A DNA stretch of 64,000 bases from Alloascoidea africana (lineage: Eukaryota > Ascomycota > Alloascoideomycetes > Alloascoideales > Alloascoideaceae), in NCBI GenBank assembly GCA_030581615.1, contig JAKTTT010000009.1:248001-312000 (forward strand). The letters are read 5' to 3'. Both the position numbers and the translations under genes were made by a program. Shown in pieces: positions 3,160 to 42,735 of the stretch. Position 1 is the stretch's first letter; the number at the start of each line of letters is the position of its first letter. The notes beneath the pieces are model-generated. The model made no database searches, was not told the DNA's origin, and saw nothing but the letters and a program-made list of their open reading frames with translations.

Positions 3160-3696
3160 CTAATGATGTCCACTGTCACCTGTATCAACAGAGATACGGT
3201 TAAGTTTATAAACAACCCCGGATTCCCAAGATCTGGCAAGTTTACCCTCTTCCACTTTTAACCACCTAATTTCAGAGGAACCTGGTGGGTTCCCCGTATC
3301 CCCCACATATCTGAAACTATCATAAGAATCCACAATGATTGGATCCTCGACCGTTCCCTTATGATTTTCAAAATCAAGAGGACGCGTAATATCATGGAAA
3401 ATATCAACACCTTCCAATTTTCCAAGAAGTTCAAGACGTGCTAAGCCGGTTTCCTGTTCGAGATCCGTCGGGATTGATCCTTCTTTTGCACCGGGTCCGA
3501 TAAGTGTCTCAGGGTCATTCGCATCAACCTCTGCCAAAGTCTTTGCAGTTTTACTGACCTTTCCACTGGCAAATGGGCTGTAAATGGAGAAAGAACGGAT
3601 GGCAGAGGTGCTCATCATGCTCATCGCTCCTCGCGAAGCGAAAAGTGGTGTCAGGCCTCGAGAAACGGCACGACCACTGAGTACTGAACGCATCAT
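3160..3696 (-). CDS. COX4: Cytochrome c oxidase subunit IV (COX5B family), zinc ligands substituted
   Basis: A 178-residue nuclear-encoded subunit of respiratory complex IV, imported into the mitochondrion. The start is the first of two adjacent ATGs (3694-3696); the open frame continues upstream through a poly-Phe/Leu leader that is not part of the protein. Residues 1-40 are an Arg/Ser/Ala-rich presequence. The conserved core is clear: GPGAKEGS near 67, TGLARLELLG near 83, DPIIVDSYDSFRYVG near 118 and WESGVVYKLN near 157. In the family, three Cys and one His bind zinc; here, at exactly the same spacing as in the yeast protein, they are D133, S141, S156 and S159. The two C-terminal Ser codons (TCT, TCC) are each one base away from Cys codons. 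So this is either a zinc-free Cox4 or a paralogue of an intact copy elsewhere. COX13 lies next upstream on the same strand. Confidence 0.9.
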   Translation of the reverse strand: MMRSVLSGRAVSRGLTPLFASRGAMSMMSTSAIRSFSIYSPFASGKVSKTAKTLAEVDANDPETLIGPGAKEGSIPTDLEQETGLARLELLGKLEGVDIFHDITRPLDFENHKGTVEDPIIVDSYDSFRYVGDTGNPPGSSEIRWLKVEEGKLARSWESGVVYKLNRISVDTGDSGHH

Positions 3697-4489
3697 CGTT
3701 ATAGAATGAGTGATTGTGAGAGGAAGAAAGAGTAGGAGAAAGAAAGAAAAAAAGCTGAGAAAAATGGGGGTAAAAAAGAAAAAAAAGGTGTGATTCTTGT
3801 TGAAAGCCGACCCATCCATCCCAACTGCACATTTGTTAACTTTTGCCCTTTTCGCTTTTTCGATCATGCCACTTGGGTTTGACTACTATACATGTCCGAG
3901 TTCCTCCATTTCCACGTACCAGGAGTAGTTTAAAAAAAAACCAACTAACAATAATCGAGTCTCTCATTCTCCATAGTTTTTGGATGTATGATGCCCCCCT
4001 CCCCCTGACCAATAGTATGCACTCTATTTACAAGTTTTCCCATCCTTTATTCTTACATTCGGAATCGGAAATGAAATGTGCTTGTGATCTCTGCTCATAA
4101 TAGAAAGCATCAGTCTCAATTTATCTCCCCATTATCGTAACGACAATCCCAACTGTCCTGTGAAAACCTGTAAAGATCAGATCAGATCAGAACAGATCAA
4201 ATCAAATCAAATCAATTTTCTACGAACCAAAACTACAACAGTAGTGGATTTTACAAAAAATGAAAGAAGTCACCAAATATTTATCTCAGTTGAGAAAAGA
4301 AACATTAACTAATCACCTTTAAAGAAAAAGACAAAAAGAAAAAAAAAAAATTAAAAAAAAATTGATAACGTAGTATTCAACGCTCCGATGATAAGAGGTC
4401 CAGACAATGTTCGTAATTTTTTTTTTTTGTTTCTCTTTTCTCTTCTCTATCCTCTTCTTTAATTAATTGTAAATATATCCGGCCAAAAA
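3697..4489. other. COX4 upstream region and COX13 3' region
   Basis: A 793-base spacer. It has a poly-purine block at 3720-3790 that is the COX4 leader, a GATCA/AATCA-type short repeat near 4173-4215, and A- and T-rich homopolymer runs at 4320-4365 and 4418-4430. No gene is seen. Confidence 0.65.
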
Positions 4490-4891
4490 TTACTTTCTGT
4501 GAGTGTTCACCGAGTCATTCCAGAACAATGTCTTATCACCATCTCCCCACCAATAATCTTTGTTTCGAATGTTTTGAAACTCATATTCTGGATGATCGGG
4601 TTCCTTCTTATGTTTGCGATGTTCAGCATGTTCCATTTCAATGAAATAGGTGTTTACTGCAACAAGAGCAATCACGGGGAAAGCAATGAAAATGGATACT
4701 TTCTTCCAAATAGAGGTCGTGGATTCAGCATGGTGTGTGGTGGCCTTGTATTCCTCAATAAATTGCTTAGCGGCTTCCTTGTCGGCTGGAACAGTAAAAG
4801 CTGGCTTGGACTCGAGACTATGGGCAAATCGACGACTCACGAGCCTGGAGGCATTAGCAGCAGAAAGTCTTGTAGATGTCAGTCTAAACAT
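4490..4891 (-). CDS. COX13: Cytochrome c oxidase subunit VIa
   Basis: A 133-residue nuclear-encoded subunit of complex IV (mammalian COX6A family), close to the usual fungal length. The start is ATG 4889-4891; the longer open frame upstream reads through a Lys/Glu-rich leader. Residues 1-24 are a basic, Ser/Ala-rich presequence (RLVSRRFAHS). A single membrane helix spans about residues 67-84 (VSIFIAFPVIALVAVNTY). It is followed by the family block EHAEHRKHKKEPDHPEY and the C-terminal WWGDGDKTLFWNDSVN. It is in tandem with COX4, giving two complex IV subunit genes within 1.8 kb, and divergent from RTS1 across a 368-base promoter. Confidence 0.93.
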   Translation of the reverse strand: MFRLTSTRLSAANASRLVSRRFAHSLESKPAFTVPADKEAAKQFIEEYKATTHHAESTTSIWKKVSIFIAFPVIALVAVNTYFIEMEHAEHRKHKKEPDHPEYEFQNIRNKDYWWGDGDKTLFWNDSVNTHRK

Positions 4892-5259: not shown

Positions 5260-7542
5260 ATGATGAAAGGTTTCAAGCAGCGGGTATGTTCAAATTGGTG
5301 ACGACAGCATCATCTTCCCGGCCAGCACCAGGCGCCTACAATGGAATTTGTTTTTATTGGGAGGGAATCTAAGGGACCCGCTACTAATTTAACCACAACC
5401 TTTTCGCTTCCCGTTTAGCTCTCCAGAAGCAAGGGCCAGTCTTCTTCATCCAAACGCAAGGATAAAGATTTTGGCAAAGACCATAAGGGCTCACGAGACA
5501 GCCGAGATGCATCCGATTCAGCAGGATCCGCATCTCCATCGTCTTCGCGCTCTTCCAAATCGTCAAAACAGCTGAAAACATCCAAGAATCCTCACTCCGA
5601 TAGGTCCTCTAAGGACAGCTTAAAACACGACAAGAGTGACGCCTTAGACGATCCAACAGCCTCAACCGCATCCATATCAAGTGCAACCTCCTCCATTTCA
5701 TCGTCATCGTCAACTTCAACTGTCACTAGCCAGCCTAACCAGAGAACACAACAAATTCAAACCCCTGTGATTCAAATTGCAGGCTCAGATAACCAATTAG
5801 CGGTATGATGACTCTTTCATTGTGTGGTGTATGGCTCACACTACCACCCCTCCCATTCCCCCATTGTACTGAATGCTAACCGATTATTTGAAATTTAGGG
5901 AGCAGGAGCCCAAGGTCAGTTGGCACATGAGAGGGGGTTTGAATCTTTAGACAGCGGGATCGAAATACCAAGAAACAGTCACTCTTTCGAAGGGCTGCAT
6001 ATTGATGGTGATATCGATCGAATCAGATCTCCAAGGCGTCACAACTCATCTCGATTTGAACCATCTCAGAGAACCGAGATCGAAAAACTCCCTTCTTTTA
6101 ACGAGGTCCTGCCAACGCAACAGGTTGATCTTTTTGTAAGTAAGGTCAAACAGTGCAATGTCATGTTTGATTTCTCTGATCCCAATTACGATATCCCGGG
6201 GAAAGAGATGAAACGAAATACACTTCAAGAATTGATAGAATTTGTCACAATCAACAGGTTTATGTATACCGATGAGATCTATGCCGAGGTTACAACCATG
6301 TTCAAAAAAAACCTATTCAGACCTATTCCTCCACCCGTGAATCCAGTAGGTGACATATATGATCCAGATGAGGATGAACCTGTTTCTGAAGTCGCTTGGC
6401 CCCATATGCAAGTTGTCTATGAATTTTTCCTTCGCTTTGTTGAATCTCCGGATTTCAATCAACAAATCGCAAAACAATACATTGATCATGAATTTATCCT
6501 GAATTTATTAGAGCTTTTCGATAGTGAGGATCCCAGAGAACGGGATTGCTTAAAAACCACTTTGCATAGAATATATGGAAAGTTCCTAAGCCTAAGGTCA
6601 TATATCCGAAGATCAATCAACAATGTTTTTCTACAATTTGTTTATGAAACTGAAAGATTTAATGGTGTCGCTGAGTTACTTGAAATTTTGGGATCAATTA
6701 TTAATGGATTCGCCTTACCACTCAAAGAAGAACACAAAGTTTTCCTGTGTAGAATTCTGATACCATTACACAAGGTACGCTCCCTAAGTCTTTACCATCC
6801 ACAATTAGCATACTGTGTTGTGCAATTTTTGGAGAAAGATCCTTCTCTTACTGAAGAGGTCATCATGGGTCTTTTACGCTATTGGCCAAAAGTGAACAGC
6901 CCTAAAGCGGTCATGTTTTTGAACGAAATTGAAGATATTTTTGAAGTTATGGAACCTTCCGAATTTGTGAGAATCGAGGTGCCTCTGTTTGTACAACTTG
7001 CAAAGTGTATTTCCAGTCCGCATTTCCAAATCTCGGAAAAAGTCTTGTGCTTTTGGAATAACGAATACTTCCTCAGCTTGGTTACAGATAACGCAAATGC
7101 AGAGGTGATTTTACCGATTATTTTCCCCTCTCTTTATGAAATTTCGAATGCCGGTGGACAACACCCATTCGATGAAGAGTCGGATGACATGTTACAAAAT
7201 CAGAGAAATAGTATGGGGAGCATTGGTAGTTCACAAAGTGGTCATTGGAATAGAACTATCAACTCTTTGGCTTATGGAGCACTTCGGATATTTATGGATT
7301 CAAATGCTATGTTATTTGATCATTGCACAATGCTATACAGGCAATCACTGGTAGAAAACGAACAAAGAGAACAATTAAGAGCAGAAGGATGGAAAAAAGT
7401 GGAAAGTTATGTGAATCAGTTGAAATATGATGAGAATGGGAGTGACGGTAATGGGGAAAAGTTGATAAATGGGAATGGTGCCGTTGAGAACACGGCGGCG
7501 GCTGTTTCCACCAATACAAATAGTCAAGTAATTGCTGTTTAA
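5260..7542 (+). CDS. RTS1: PP2A regulatory subunit B' (B56), three exons
   Basis: The regulatory subunit that targets protein phosphatase 2A. I read it as exons 5260-5283, 5419-5802 and 5899-7542, giving 683 residues (the S. cerevisiae protein is somewhat longer). Exon 1 is only 24 bases and encodes MMKGFKQR, which with the next residues matches the characteristic MMRGFKQRL start of Rts1. Intron 1 (135 nt) begins GTATGT with a TACTAAT branch site at 5382; intron 2 (96 nt) begins GTATGA, with GCTAAC at 5875. Both keep the frame. Exon 2 encodes a Ser/Lys-rich disordered tail. The B56 HEAT-like domain runs from about residue 185 to 610, with [41 protein letters not shown] and the [14 protein letters not shown] block. 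The C-terminus is Asn/Gly-rich. Convergent with GCD2. Confidence 0.93.
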
Positions 7543-34330: not shown

Positions 34331-35422
34331 ATGTATCCAGAAACGTTTGAAGGATTTGCCGTGCCATCGCTGAAGCAATGGAGCTCACCCAAGAAAATCG
34401 CATACGCACCAAAAGAGTTTGGTCCGCGCGATGTTGATATCGAGATTGAGTGTTGCGGTGTCTGTGGCTCGGACTGCCACACCGTAGGGGGACATTGGGG
34501 CCAGATCAAGTACCCTTTGGTTGTGGGACACGAGATCGTGGGCAAGGTGGTTCGCACAGGACCCCGGGTGACCACTCTTAGCGTGGGAGACCGTGTGGGC
34601 GTTGGAGCCCAGGCTTTTGCCTGTCTTGAATGTCGAAGATGCGAGAATGGTCAGGAACAATACTGTGCGAAACAGGTTGACACGTATAGCGGCACCTACG
34701 AAAGTGGTTACTACTCCCAAGGAGGCTACGCTTCGCACGTCCGAGTCCACGAGCATTTTGCCTTTGCGATTCCAGACGAGATCGAGTCAGAGCTCGCTGC
34801 ACCCCTGTTCTGTGCTGGACTCACTGTATACTCTCCTCTGGTGCGCAATGGGTGCCGACCCGGAGTCAAAGTCGGCATCATTGGCATCGGCGGACTGGGC
34901 CATCTAGCGATCATGATTGCAAGTGCGATGGGTGCAGAAGTGACGGCGTTCTCCAGGTCAGACAAGAAGAGAGAGGAGGCCCTTTCCATGGGAGCGAAAA
35001 ACCTGATTGCAACTGGTGATCCCAATGCCCAGGACTGGCATTCTGAGTACGCAGACTCGTTCGATTTGATTCTCAACTGTGCCTCGAACTTTTCCGGAAT
35101 GGCTCTTGAAAAGTTTTTGCAAACGTTGCGAGTTCACGGAAGCTTCATCAGTGTTGGAGTTTCATCTTTGGACGATACATTTAACATCAGTCCCATGGCG
35201 CTAATCTCGAACGGTGCGCTAGTGGGTAGTTCCCATGTGGGCAGCCGCCAGGAGATGCTAGATCTGCTCAAACTCTGTGCAGAAAAGGGCATCAGGCCCT
35301 GGGTCACAACTGTGCCGATAAGCGAGGAGGGATGCCATCAAGTTCTGGAAAAATGTGCAAAGAGTGATGTTCGGTACAGGTTTACTTTGGTTGATTTTAA
35401 GAAGGAGTTTGTAAGCGAGTAG
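34331..35422 (+). CDS. ADH6: NADP-dependent zinc alcohol dehydrogenase (cinnamyl-ADH type)
   Basis: A 363-residue medium-chain dehydrogenase, close to the length of yeast Adh6/Adh7, which reduce a wide range of aldehydes and alcohols with NADPH. ATG 34331 gives the family start MYPETFEGFAV; the open frame extends 53 codons upstream into a poly-Phe leader. Catalytic zinc ligands lie in CGVCGSDCHTVGG (near 40) and GHE (near 65); the structural-zinc cysteines are in CLECRRCENGQEQYC (near 98). The Rossmann motif GIGGLGHLAI (near 181) is followed by SRSDKKREEA, whose Ser/Arg pattern is typical of NADP use in this subfamily. No presequence, so cytosolic. Adh6-type proteins use the same motifs, and I cannot separate ADH6 from ADH7. 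Confidence 0.9.
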   Translation: MYPETFEGFAVPSLKQWSSPKKIAYAPKEFGPRDVDIEIECCGVCGSDCHTVGGHWGQIKYPLVVGHEIVGKVVRTGPRVTTLSVGDRVGVGAQAFACLECRRCENGQEQYCAKQVDTYSGTYESGYYSQGGYASHVRVHEHFAFAIPDEIESELAAPLFCAGLTVYSPLVRNGCRPGVKVGIIGIGGLGHLAIMIASAMGAEVTAFSRSDKKREEALSMGAKNLIATGDPNAQDWHSEYADSFDLILNCASNFSGMALEKFLQTLRVHGSFISVGVSSLDDTFNISPMALISNGALVGSSHVGSRQEMLDLLKLCAEKGIRPWVTTVPISEEGCHQVLEKCAKSDVRYRFTLVDFKKEFVSE

Positions 35423-36350: not shown

Positions 36351-39300
36351 ATGACAGGAACAGGAACAGGAACAGAACCTAGGTTCTCCGTCCCTATTAA
36401 ACAACTTCAAGCACTTCATGATCCGAAATCTCTTCAAATCTTACAAGACTTGGGCTTTTTGGAAGGACTCTGCGTTCTCTTGAGAACCTCTGCTAAAGAT
36501 GGTCTGGACCGTGACCTCCCAGATGCAAAAGACAGAGTCAAGGCATACGGTGACAACAAGATCCCGACCCGCAAACCCAAGTCTTTTTTCCGTTTAGCAA
36601 TCGAACAATTTGAAGATAAGGTGCTCGTTGTGCTCTCTGTCGCTGCAGTCATCTCCTTATCTCTCGGCCTATACGAAACTTTTGGTCAGCCCACCCACTA
36701 CGACGGCCTCGGCAGAGCAATCCCTAAAGTAGAATGGGTAGAAGGTGTCGCTATCATTGTTGCCATCGCCATTGTGGTTATTGTCGGTGCTGCAAATAAC
36801 TTTCAAAAAGAACGTCAGTTTGCAAGGCTTAATGCACGCAAAGAGGATAGAGAAATTAATGTTGTACGAAGCGGTAAAGAAATGGCAATCTCGATCTATG
36901 ACCTGCTTGTAGGAGACGTGCTCGTGCTCGAAACAGGCGAAGTAATCCCTGCAGATGGAATCATGATTTCGGGATCCTGTGAATGCGATGAGTCCTCAGT
37001 CACAGGTGAATCCGACTTGATCAAGAAGATGTCGATTGACAAGGTTGAAGCCCACACGAACCGCAGCATAAACTCCAGCAACGAGGGAAACAGTAAAATT
37101 CCTGATCCGTTCCTGCTCTCAGGAAGCATGGTAAACACAGGCCTCTGCCGGTGTCTTGTCACCTCTGTGGGAATTCATTCGATGCACGGGAAGGTCATGA
37201 TGGCAGTCCAAGTAGAACCAGAGCCTACGCCTCTTCAAGTGAGACTGGATAGAATGGCCAGCGGCATCTCCAAGTTTGGTGCCTACGCGGGTACTTTCTT
37301 CTTCTTTGTACTCTTCTTCCGCTTTCTCAGCTTCATCTCTAGCGGTGGCCAGTTTGCAGACCTGCTGCCCTCAGAAAAGGCCTCCAAGTTCCTCGACATT
37401 CTAATCACTGCAATTACCTTGGTCGTCGTCGCTGTACCTGAGGGACTCCCCCTGGCAGTTACACTCTCGCTCGCCTTTGCCACGACTCGTATGTCCGCAG
37501 ATGGTAACCTTGTTCGAGTGCTAAAGGCTTGTGAAACAATGGGCGGCGCTACCTGTATTTGTAGCGACAAGACTGGCACGTTGACCGAGAACAGGATGAC
37601 GGTTGTCAAGGGCAAGATTGGCAAACCTTCTGCAAAACAGGACTTTTCCGATATCGATGCCTCCGCTGAGCCTGCTGAAACAACTGTTCCAAAGCTCTCA
37701 CCCAAGTTGAAGAGCATGTTGCTTGCCAGTATTACACTGAACTCAACAGCTTTTGAAAATGAAAGATACGTAGAGACTGAAAGTTCAGGACTCGGTGTTA
37801 CCAGAACAAACACCGCGGATCCAACAGTATCTTCTCAAGATGATTCGTGGTTTGCAAGCGCCGTGAGTGTGGTCAAGTACATGGTCAACTATTTGATTCC
37901 CGATAATGGTGATGACAAATCGAAAACCGGACAAGTGAGCAGAAACCTGAGAGAATCATTCACAAGCAGCCGGAAGGCTAAGGAACCAACAAACTGTGTA
38001 TCATTTCTTAAAAACGTACAACAACGACTTTTGCGAAAGGGGAAACGCGAAGGAGGTGCAACGTTCCGTGTTGTTCAAGAACCTTTCATCGGGTCCAAAA
38101 CAGAGACTGCGTTGCTTCTTTTTGCGAAACAACATTTGGGAATGGGGATTGGATCTTTAGACGACATTCGCAAGTTTAAGGATGAAGACATCATGGTAAG
38201 ACAAGTTGTTCAGGTTGTGCCGTTTGAAAGCGATCGCAAATGGGGTGGTATCGTGGTTGAGATGGACGATATGGAACAAGGACAAGAATTGAGACACTAT
38301 AGACTGTTGGTGAAGGGGGCTTCCGAGCTCATTTTATCACGACAAGAAATGATTCTGGATGAAGACGGTGAGAGCGCGAAATGGATGACTAGAGCAGACT
38401 ACGAGACGATAATGGACACAATCAACGACTATGCTTCCGAATCTCTTCGTACCATTTGTGTTGCTTTCCGCGACTTTTACTGTGAACAGTGGCCACCACA
38501 GGAGTTGGGCACCAGAGAGGCCGACGTAGATCTTCTTCTCGGTCGTGAAGTTCTTCCAGCAGACTTGGACTCTCACACGGACTCTGCAAGCGCAAGTAAT
38601 GAGGGCAGCAAAATGACGTTTGTGGGTCTGTTTGGAATCCAAGATCCGCTTAGAAAGGGCGTCGCCAAGTCGATCTCCGATTGTCAACACGCTGGAGTCA
38701 CCGTTCGAATGGTCACTGGTGATAACATGCTAACCGCTCGGGCAATTGCTTCTTCGTGTGGCATTTTCCAACCCGAGATGGGAGGTATCTGTATGGAAGG
38801 TCCCGAGTTTCGAGCTCTGAGTAAGCGCCAGCAGCTAGCAATTGTACCGAAGCTCCAGGTTCTGGCACGATCTTCACCCGAGGACAAGCGGGTTTTGGTC
38901 AAGACTCTGAAAGCGATGGACGAGGTTGTTGCCGTCACTGGCGATGGCACGAACGATGCTCCTGCTCTGCGACTTGCGGATGTTGGATTTTCTATGGGCA
39001 TTTCCGGAACAGAGGTTGCGAGAGAAGCCTCGGACATTATTCTTTTGACCGACGATTTCACGTCGATTGTTAATGCGATCAAGTGGGGGAGATGTGTTTC
39101 AACTTCGATCAAAAAGTTTCTGCAGTTCCAGCTCACTGTCAATGTCACTGCTGTCGTCGTCACTTTTGTCTCTGCTGTCGCCAGTTCCGATGGCGAGTCT
39201 GTGCTGACTGCTATTCAATTGTTATGGGTTAATCTGATCATGGATACCCTTGCTGCTCTAGCGCTGGCAACAGATAAACCCGCAAAGGATATTTTGAACC

Positions 39301-40166
39301 GGAAACCCAAGAACCGCCATAGTTCGCTCATTGCTCCATCCACATGGAAGATGATTTTCGGTCAAGCGATTCTCCAAGTTACAGTTTCGTTTATCGTGCA
39401 CTTTTGTGGAGCCAGGATTTTCTACGGTAATGGAGAAATCAACGATGCGGACCATACTCGATTGAACGCTTGCACTTTCAACACATTTGTGTGGCTTCAG
39501 TTTTGGAAATTGTTTGTGACGAGAAAGTTGGACGAGGCTGATGGCATCACAAATGTTAGAGACCGAATAACGATGGAGAATTTGAATTTCTTTGAGCAAC
39601 TGGGACGGAACTGGTACTTTTTGGCCATCGCGGTGCTCATTGGAACATGTCAAGTTCTCATTATGTTTGTTGGCGGTAGAGCTTTTTCAATTGCACGTCA
39701 AACCGGACCAATGTGGGGGGTTGCTATTGTATGTGGCATGTTGTCTATCCCCATGGGAGCGCTTATTAGGATTGTTCCAGATGAATGGATTGTCAGGATC
39801 TTCCCTACACGGGCTTTCAACTACTGTGTTGGGATCTACGAAAATCGCAAAAACTGGTTTAGGCGCGGCAAACGCAATCCTGAGGTTGTCGTTGAAGACG
39901 TTGAGTCTCATGAGACTCCACAGGAGAAGCAACAAAAGAAAAAGTCCTGGTTTAGAAGATTTGGACGGAAAAGCAAGTCTGAGGAACAGGATGAAGAGGA
40001 TTCTGTTCCTGGCTCTGGCAATGGTTCGAGGAGACGTTCTTCAAAAGTGTCAGAAACAGTGACAGAGTCACACGCCACGGACAACTTTATCGTTTATGAG
40101 AAGAATGGCTATCTGGCCACGGCGACACAGGACTCGTCATCAATGTCTTCTCTGGGTGGGAATTAG
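36351..40166 (+). CDS. PMC1: Vacuolar P-type Ca2+-ATPase
   Basis: A 1271-residue P2B-type calcium pump (PMCA family; the yeast protein is about 1170 residues) that moves cytosolic Ca2+ into the vacuole. Start ATG 36351. Visible in order: the first membrane pair near residues 90-150 (VLSVAAVISLSLGLYETFG), the actuator TGES near 223 within SSVTGESDL, the M4 Ca2+-site motif VAVPEGLPLAVT, the phosphorylation site CSDKTGTLTEN with Asp406, the KGASE nucleotide-binding motif near 663, TGDN near 790 and the hinge motif TGDGTNDAPAL near 863, followed by six C-terminal helices. The N-domain carries a roughly 90-residue insert after ETESSG. The Arg/Lys/Ser-rich C-terminal tail (RRFGRKSKS, RRRSSK) is longer than usual. 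CTG encodes the second Leu of PEGLPLAV. Confidence 0.95.
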   Translation: MTGTGTGTEPRFSVPIKQLQALHDPKSLQILQDLGFLEGLCVLLRTSAKDGLDRDLPDAKDRVKAYGDNKIPTRKPKSFFRLAIEQFEDKVLVVLSVAAVISLSLGLYETFGQPTHYDGLGRAIPKVEWVEGVAIIVAIAIVVIVGAANNFQKERQFARLNARKEDREINVVRSGKEMAISIYDLLVGDVLVLETGEVIPADGIMISGSCECDESSVTGESDLIKKMSIDKVEAHTNRSINSSNEGNSKIPDPFLLSGSMVNTGLCRCLVTSVGIHSMHGKVMMAVQVEPEPTPLQVRLDRMASGISKFGAYAGTFFFFVLFFRFLSFISSGGQFADLLPSEKASKFLDILITAITLVVVAVPEGLPLAVTLSLAFATTRMSADGNLVRVLKACETMGGATCICSDKTGTLTENRMTVVKGKIGKPSAKQDFSDIDASAEPAETTVPKLSPKLKSMLLASITLNSTAFENERYVETESSGLGVTRTNTADPTVSSQDDSWFASAVSVVKYMVNYLIPDNGDDKSKTGQVSRNLRESFTSSRKAKEPTNCVSFLKNVQQRLLRKGKREGGATFRVVQEPFIGSKTETALLLFAKQHLGMGIGSLDDIRKFKDEDIMVRQVVQVVPFESDRKWGGIVVEMDDMEQGQELRHYRLLVKGASELILSRQEMILDEDGESAKWMTRADYETIMDTINDYASESLRTICVAFRDFYCEQWPPQELGTREADVDLLLGREVLPADLDSHTDSASASNEGSKMTFVGLFGIQDPLRKGVAKSISDCQHAGVTVRMVTGDNMLTARAIASSCGIFQPEMGGICMEGPEFRALSKRQQLAIVPKLQVLARSSPEDKRVLVKTLKAMDEVVAVTGDGTNDAPALRLADVGFSMGISGTEVAREASDIILLTDDFTSIVNAIKWGRCVSTSIKKFLQFQLTVNVTAVVVTFVSAVASSDGESVLTAIQLLWVNLIMDTLAALALATDKPAKDILNRKPKNRHSSLIAPSTWKMIFGQAILQVTVSFIVHFCGARIFYGNGEINDADHTRLNACTFNTFVWLQFWKLFVTRKLDEADGITNVRDRITMENLNFFEQLGRNWYFLAIAVLIGTCQVLIMFVGGRAFSIARQTGPMWGVAIVCGMLSIPMGALIRIVPDEWIVRIFPTRAFNYCVGIYENRKNWFRRGKRNPEVVVEDVESHETPQEKQQKKKSWFRRFGRKSKSEEQDEEDSVPGSGNGSRRRSSKVSETVTESHATDNFIVYEKNGYLATATQDSSSMSSLGGN

Positions 40167-41520: not shown

Positions 41521-42735
41521 CTACTCAGGTCCATCAATAACAGCCTTAATGGCCTTACCGTCCCGAACAATTTCAAAAGCCTTGACAGCATCTCCAAAGG
41601 GAACTCTATGGGTGATCATTCTCTTGACGTTGACCTTGCCCTCGGAAATCAAACCAACAGCGCGCTTAAAGTCGCCGTAGAAGTATCTGAAAGAACCCTT
41701 GAGAATGAGCTCCTTGATACTGAGCATCGTGATGGGGAACGTAACATTGTCAGTTCCTTGGCCGGCCTGGACCATGGTGCCGCCAGCAGCCAACGTGTGA
41801 ATGCCGGCCTGGATGGAAGGCTGGGCACCAGAAGCCTCAATTGCAATTTCAGGAGCAAATCCAGCAGCCTTTTGGATCTTTTCAGCAGTAACCTCTGCAG
41901 AATCGCCCTTGACTGGAACGTAGGTATGTGTTGCGCCGAATTCCTTGGCCACGTCAAGCTTGGATTGAACGAGGTCAACAGCAATGATATCTGTAGCACC
42001 GTAGGCTTTGGCAGTCGCAATTGAGAGAAGTCCAATTGGTCCAGCGCCAAACACGATGACCTTGGAACCAAAAGTGACTCCACCAAGTCTTGTGACGTGG
42101 ACTGCAACAGATAGAGGCTCAGCAAGAGCGCCTTCTTCGTAGGTGACGTGATCGGGAAGCTTGACACAGAAATCCTCGGGGACAGTGTAGTATCTGGCCA
42201 GAGTTCCGTCAAATGGAGGAGTGGCAGCGAAAGCCATGTGTGGGCACAAATTGTACTGACCAGCTTTGTACTCATCAGAGTATCTGGATGGGATACCTGG
42301 CTCCATGGTGACTCTGTCGCCTACTTTGAGAGAAGTAACGGCGCTACCAACTTCAACAACCTCACCAGCAGACTCGTGGCCCAAAACCATAGGGTCTTTG
42401 ACAATAAAGTTGCCAATTGAGCCGTGTGTAAAGTAGTGCACATCAGAACCGCAAATACCAGTCTTCTTCACATTGACTCTGACGTAGTGCTCATCGGGAA
42501 GCTTTGGAATGGGCTTGTCCTCGTACACAATCTCGCCAGCTTTTTTCAACACAAGAGATGGATTGACAGAGGTCTCCAGATCTACCAATTTTTCATGAGA
42601 ACCAAATAGCGCGGCCCCGGTCTGGAAAGAGCGGGAGCGGGCCAGGAGGATGGAGAACCTGGTGGCAGCTGCAGCTGTAACTGGGTTGGCTGCCTTTTGA
42701 GCAAGGCTCAGTCTGAGAAATCCGGTCTTAAGCAT
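41521..42735 (-). CDS. XYL2: Xylitol/sorbitol dehydrogenase with mitochondrial-type presequence
   Basis: A 404-residue NAD-dependent polyol dehydrogenase (medium-chain family), which oxidises xylitol to xylulose or sorbitol to fructose. From about residue 57 it follows the XYL2 family: [28 protein letters not shown] (catalytic Cys), [49 protein letters not shown], the cofactor loop GAGPIGLL and SFRYFYGD. The structural-zinc cysteines are mostly replaced (PSRYSDEY), as is normal for yeast xylitol dehydrogenases. The unusual part is residues 1-50: no acidic residue until after position 45, with Arg, Ser and Ala throughout ([15 protein letters not shown]), a strong mitochondrial-targeting look. 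The next in-frame Met is deep in the catalytic domain, so translation should include it. The usual family proteins are ~360 residues and cytosolic. Confidence 0.9.

Follow-up and report, generated by a model that had tools for sequence, protein, structure and literature searches.

Cox4 genes of the yeast Alloascoidea africana with replacements at all four zinc-ligand positions

The Cox4 gene and its zinc-ligand positions

A 64,000-nucleotide stretch of the Alloascoidea africana genome (assembly GCA_030581615.1, contig JAKTTT010000009.1, positions 248,001 to 312,000 of the forward strand; the whole stretch is referred to as the window) was analysed for a gene encoding Cox4, a complex IV subunit of the COX5B family, in which the residues at all four zinc-ligand positions are replaced. 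The gene and the features used below are listed in window coordinates.

3160 to 3696, minus strand: coding sequence of Cox4 (COX5B family), one open frame of 178 amino acids with no Cys, from the open reading frame (ORF) and its PF01215 match
3562 to 3696, minus strand: residues 1-45, a putative mitochondrial presequence, judged from composition and from the start of the match to the yeast chain
3163 to 3561, minus strand: mature Cox4 domain, 95% identical to that of a second copy (pairwise alignment)
3298 to 3300, minus strand: D133, codon GAT, at the first Cys ligand position (alignment to yeast Cox4)
3274 to 3276, minus strand: S141, codon TCT, at the His ligand position, with Thr in the second copy (alignment to yeast Cox4)
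3229 to 3231, minus strand: S156, codon TCT, at the second Cys ligand position (alignment to yeast Cox4)
3220 to 3222, minus strand: S159, codon TCC, at the third Cys ligand position (alignment to yeast Cox4)
3214 to 3216, minus strand: V161, a candidate repacking change with a putative role, where Ser is invariant in three comparison sequences

The window protein scored 153.7 bits with the Pfam COX5B model (PF01215; cut-off 31) over profile positions 4-129 of 129, and this full-length domain above the curated cut-off places it in the COX5B/Cox4 family. A search of the PDB gave the same assignment, with Cox4 chains as the nine best of 23 matches, and the same nine chains headed a search with a profile built from both copies (among the Cox4 matches, the source organism was confirmed for 6hu9, 6giq, 6ymx and 8c8q only). 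The domain is that of yeast Cox4 and mammalian COX5B over its full length, with the ligand positions spaced alike. In comparison with yeast Cox4, however, the window protein lacks all four zinc ligands, has no Cys anywhere, and carries three additional residues in the arm preceding the zinc-site region. In an assembly search with yeast Cox4 as query, identity was 66% for the window copy and 67% for the second copy. Prokaryote and viral contigs yielded no relatives in a search that used the window protein alone as query and reaches close relatives only. RNA folding of the 204-nucleotide region upstream of the gene revealed nothing notable (z 1.47).

Alignment to S. cerevisiae Cox4 (6hu9_d) showed that the yeast ligands C, H, C and C correspond to D133, S141, S156 and S159, with the spacing unchanged, just as the original prediction had placed them. 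Zinc-binding fungal members of the family carry C-x7-H and C-x2-C; the two A. africana copies have D/S/S/S and D/T/S/S instead. Elsewhere in the family, plant and protist chains have C, H and CxxC, and mammals have C-x-C with CxxC. The codons of S156 and S159 are each a single base from a Cys codon, in line with the two single-base Cys-to-Ser changes proposed earlier, while those of D133 and S141 are at least two changes away from Cys or His.

To put these replacements in proportion, the core of both copies was aligned with three ligand-bearing Cox4 sequences (S. cerevisiae, S. pombe 8c8q_D and 8uck_d). Nine of the 50 columns invariant in the latter three are altered in the window protein: all four ligand columns, and 5 of the 46 others (Fisher p = 5e-4, a rough value because it rests on three comparison sequences). 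One of these five is the Ser to Val change at V161, two residues beyond the last ligand position. The other 41 of the 46 columns are kept, in agreement with the earlier statement that the rest of the domain is well conserved, and because the remainder of the domain is so closely conserved the loss can be called clean. The fold had also been described as intact; the conserved sequence is consistent with this, the fold itself being predicted from sequence.

A second ligand-free copy in a duplicated block

The whole assembly (23.18 Mb in 138 contigs) was searched for further Cox4 genes. The Pfam COX5B model detected two loci, that in the window and one at C2:310282-310674, and a yeast Cox4 query, in which the Cys and His residues are present, returned the same two loci and no third at E values up to 10. 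Both searches proceeded exon by exon, and a gene broken up into tiny exons might therefore have gone unnoticed. Thus, neither the Pfam model nor the yeast query detected a Cox4 with intact zinc ligands in the assembly, within the limit that an intron-split or unassembled copy could be missed. A normal COX4 elsewhere in the genome, which the original prediction had itself named as evidence that would tell against it, did not turn up, and the only other copy is also ligand-free.

The second gene (L001 1390-1905) encodes 171 amino acids and has D, T, S and S at the ligand positions. Both copies are full-length with presequence-like N-termini, and it is this N-terminal stretch that diverges between them: identity is 124 of 129 residues for the mature proteins and 132 of 153 with presequences included. 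Synonymous sites between the copies are saturated (pS 0.78, Nei-Gojobori), with a dN of 0.032. Because the mature proteins are near-identical despite saturated synonymous sites, the ligand-free form has been under strong purifying selection; these substitution levels point to two separate genes of considerable age and to strong constraint on the protein in its ligand-free form. As both copies have D, S and S in common, the ligands were, most simply, lost before the duplication. Alternatives are parallel loss or an old gene conversion, and a conversion too old to leave a trace at synonymous sites is a possible source of the shared state. A base-calling or sequencing error is unlikely, because the second, separate locus shows the equivalent loss (D, T, S, S). 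A pseudogene or decaying gene is rejected in view of the two separate loci and the strong purifying selection.

The surroundings of the two genes were compared by matching window ORFs (at least 60 amino acids, stop to stop) to a 210-kb section of C2 that includes the second Cox4, at E values up to 1e-6. All 17 matches fell within three gene pairs, encoding Cox4, a PP2A B56 subunit and a P-type Ca2+-ATPase-like protein, whose order and relative orientation are alike in the window (3160-40166) and in C2 (~286-311 kb; L029, L005 and L006). The remaining window ORFs had no match within those 210 kb of C2. The block can be read from its sequence as an old segmental or whole-genome duplication. Neighbouring genes in the window are as follows.

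4490 to 4891, minus strand: Cox13/COX6A, a complex IV subunit, neighbour of Cox4
6163 to 7542, plus strand: PP2A B56 regulatory subunit, with a paralogue near the second Cox4 (76% identical)
36351 to 40166, plus strand: P-type cation (Ca2+-ATPase-like) transporter, with a paralogue in the C2 block (57% identical)

Cox4 and Cox13 thus adjoin on one strand (3160-4891, minus strand); the second Cox4 adjoins the gene for the 24-kDa subunit of complex I instead (L001 1390-2998). The top matches of NDUFV2 are two chains named NUHM, 6gcs_H and 9ihp_E, from Yarrowia and another yeast.

Besides Cox4, the complex IV subunits sought were Cox13, Cox6, Cox5 and COX1, and genes for the first three are present. 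Cox13 gave one match in the genome. The Cox5 family gave four loci (L042-L045), of which L045 scored much weaker, and Cox6 gave five matches at three places (L016-L020). Some of the Cox6 matches contain internal stops, which suggests that the Cox6 genes contain introns. Accessory complex IV subunits, namely the Cox5 family and Cox6, have therefore multiplied in this genome. The search for COX1 gave no match, so the assembly probably lacks the mitochondrial genome; introns or a different code could also hide the gene.

Zinc sites in homologues and in other proteins of the genome

Zinc ligands are present in a range of Cox4 homologues. They occur in S. cerevisiae, S. pombe and 8uck/8ucj, and C, H and CxxC are also present in mung bean 7jro_e, 9fq7_4X and 7w5z_5B, while the mammalian chains displayed have their own variant. 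Structural papers place a zinc ion in their models of Cox4 from S. pombe (PMC9935853) and of complex IV from Vigna radiata (PMC7815315), report zinc in S. cerevisiae Cox4 (PMC8361435), and name His-110 of V. radiata COX5B as a zinc ligand (PMC8775464). Because ligands or zinc occur across fungal, plant and other chains, the zinc-bound state is most simply taken as ancestral.

The window Cox4 is not the first COX5B homologue without ligands. The 'Cox5b' chain 9f5x_2E, from a solved respiratory complex, also carries neither Cys nor His at these positions (aligned stretch 97-151). It is, however, much further removed in sequence (E 0.095 in the search with the profile built from both copies), whereas the A. 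africana copies conserve the rest of the domain; we take the organism of 9f5x to be Euglena. No report of a zinc-free Cox4 or COX5B was found among the titles and abstract openings of the matches listed from the openly licensed PMC literature.

Structural zinc has likewise been lost in budding yeasts from xylitol dehydrogenases, in which Cys was replaced by Asp and Ser (PMC9895041). These differ from Cox4 in being unrelated proteins, the site lying in an enzyme lobe rather than in a respiratory subunit. Xylitol dehydrogenases that have no structural zinc make up an entire group in yeasts and fungi. Natural patterns in the family include D-S-S-D and S-S-Y-C, the latter reported for the Pichia stipitis enzyme (PMC9895041). 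In S. pombe xylitol dehydrogenase a Cys-to-Asp change kept activity and stability better than a change to Ser, Asp coordinates structural zinc instead of Cys in some MDR enzymes, and the authors proposed that structural zinc was lost via Asp (PMC9895041).

Other zinc sites in the A. africana genome were examined in parallel. Both mitochondrial zinc proteins examined besides Cox4 keep their ligands (2/2): NDUFS6 (C14) has C, H, C and C, and a Zim17-type (zf-DNL) protein (C11) has both CxxC pairs, at the positions that we take to be the ligands in these families. Within the window, all four structural-zinc Cys are retained by an ADH-like protein (34331-35422), while a xylitol/sorbitol-dehydrogenase-like protein (41521-42735, minus strand) has S-S-Y-C in its structural-zinc lobe, i.e. 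three of the four Cys positions are changed. A general loss of mitochondrial zinc sites is unsupported, as NDUFS6 and the Zim17-type protein retain theirs (2/2).

Complex IV is an abundant user of zinc, and under chronic zinc limitation a lineage might save the metal by doing without it in a respiratory subunit that is made in large amounts. The xylitol-dehydrogenase-like protein of the window, in which three of the four structural-zinc Cys are missing, is consistent with such economy. We nevertheless consider this explanation improbable. Because the NDUFS6, Zim17-type and ADH-like proteins keep their zinc ligands, a general zinc economy is unsupported, albeit on a small sample, and the adaptation to low zinc suggested in the original prediction was not borne out on the two mitochondrial proteins of that sample. 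Moreover, zinc-free xylitol dehydrogenases constitute a group in yeasts and fungi, and the text seen of the paper describing them ties them to no shortage of zinc (PMC9895041).

A putative zinc-free working form of Cox4

We consider it likely that these genes encode the normal, matrix-side Cox4 of complex IV in a lineage that has dispensed with structural zinc, with the ligands replaced before the block duplication and the zinc-free form being the working form. The last point follows from the retention of both copies with almost unchanged mature proteins. The protein is predicted to bind no zinc and to assemble into complex IV in that state. Two possibilities had been offered initially, a real zinc-free complex IV subunit or a paralogue released from zinc binding. 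The failure of both assembly searches to find a ligand-bearing Cox4 and the strong purifying selection favour the former; the latter is not favoured, as both paralogues share the loss.

The change may be pictured as follows. The role of zinc was most likely just to hold loop and knuckle together. Small polar residues (Asp, Ser/Thr, Ser and Ser) would have taken the place of the four ligands prior to the old block duplication, after which both copies would have been retained with almost unchanged mature proteins. Hydrogen bonding by Asp and Ser, together with local repacking such as the change from Ser to Val after the last ligand, may now replace the metal. The D-S/T-S-S of Cox4 resembles in its style of replacement the natural patterns of xylitol dehydrogenases, such as D-S-S-D and S-S-Y-C (PMC9895041), and by analogy with the yeast enzyme the route possibly led through an Asp intermediate.

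A point that weighs against a zinc-free working form is the Thr found in the second copy where yeast has its His ligand, which makes this position only loosely held.

It is also conceivable that the oxygens of Asp and Ser/Thr still give the site a weak hold on a metal other than zinc, such as Mg2+ or Ca2+. Asp133 is retained in both copies, and Asp replaces Cys as a structural-zinc ligand in some MDR enzymes, according to the part consulted of PMC9895041. The site offers only one carboxylate, however, with no Cys or His at any of the four positions, one of which varies between Ser and Thr in the two copies, and we regard such binding as slightly less probable still than zinc limitation. The least probable explanation by a small margin, in our judgement remote, is that both genes are specialised or non-respiratory paralogues and that a third, zinc-binding Cox4 which does the normal job is missing from the assembly: the division of the assembly into 138 contigs and the failure to find mitochondrial COX1 there leave some room for it, but the Pfam and yeast-Cox4 searches yield just two loci, a dN of 0.03 against saturated dS is expected of a core subunit, and both genes are full-length with presequence-like N-termini.

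A broader proposal can also be made, to which we give an even chance: a whole yeast lineage would run a fully functional cytochrome c oxidase without structural zinc, with a repacked, hydrogen-bonded core reached via an Asp intermediate and with assembly independent of matrix zinc, contrary to what yeast mutants suggest. These data suggest that zinc is dispensable in a working complex IV. A homologue this close to yeast Cox4 (66% identity), kept as two old, near-constant, ligand-free copies, amounts to a natural experiment on the purpose of the metal. It offers both a donor for complementation of a cox4 deletion and a small set of residues that are candidates for compensating the loss. With these at hand, the role of zinc in Cox4 becomes directly testable.
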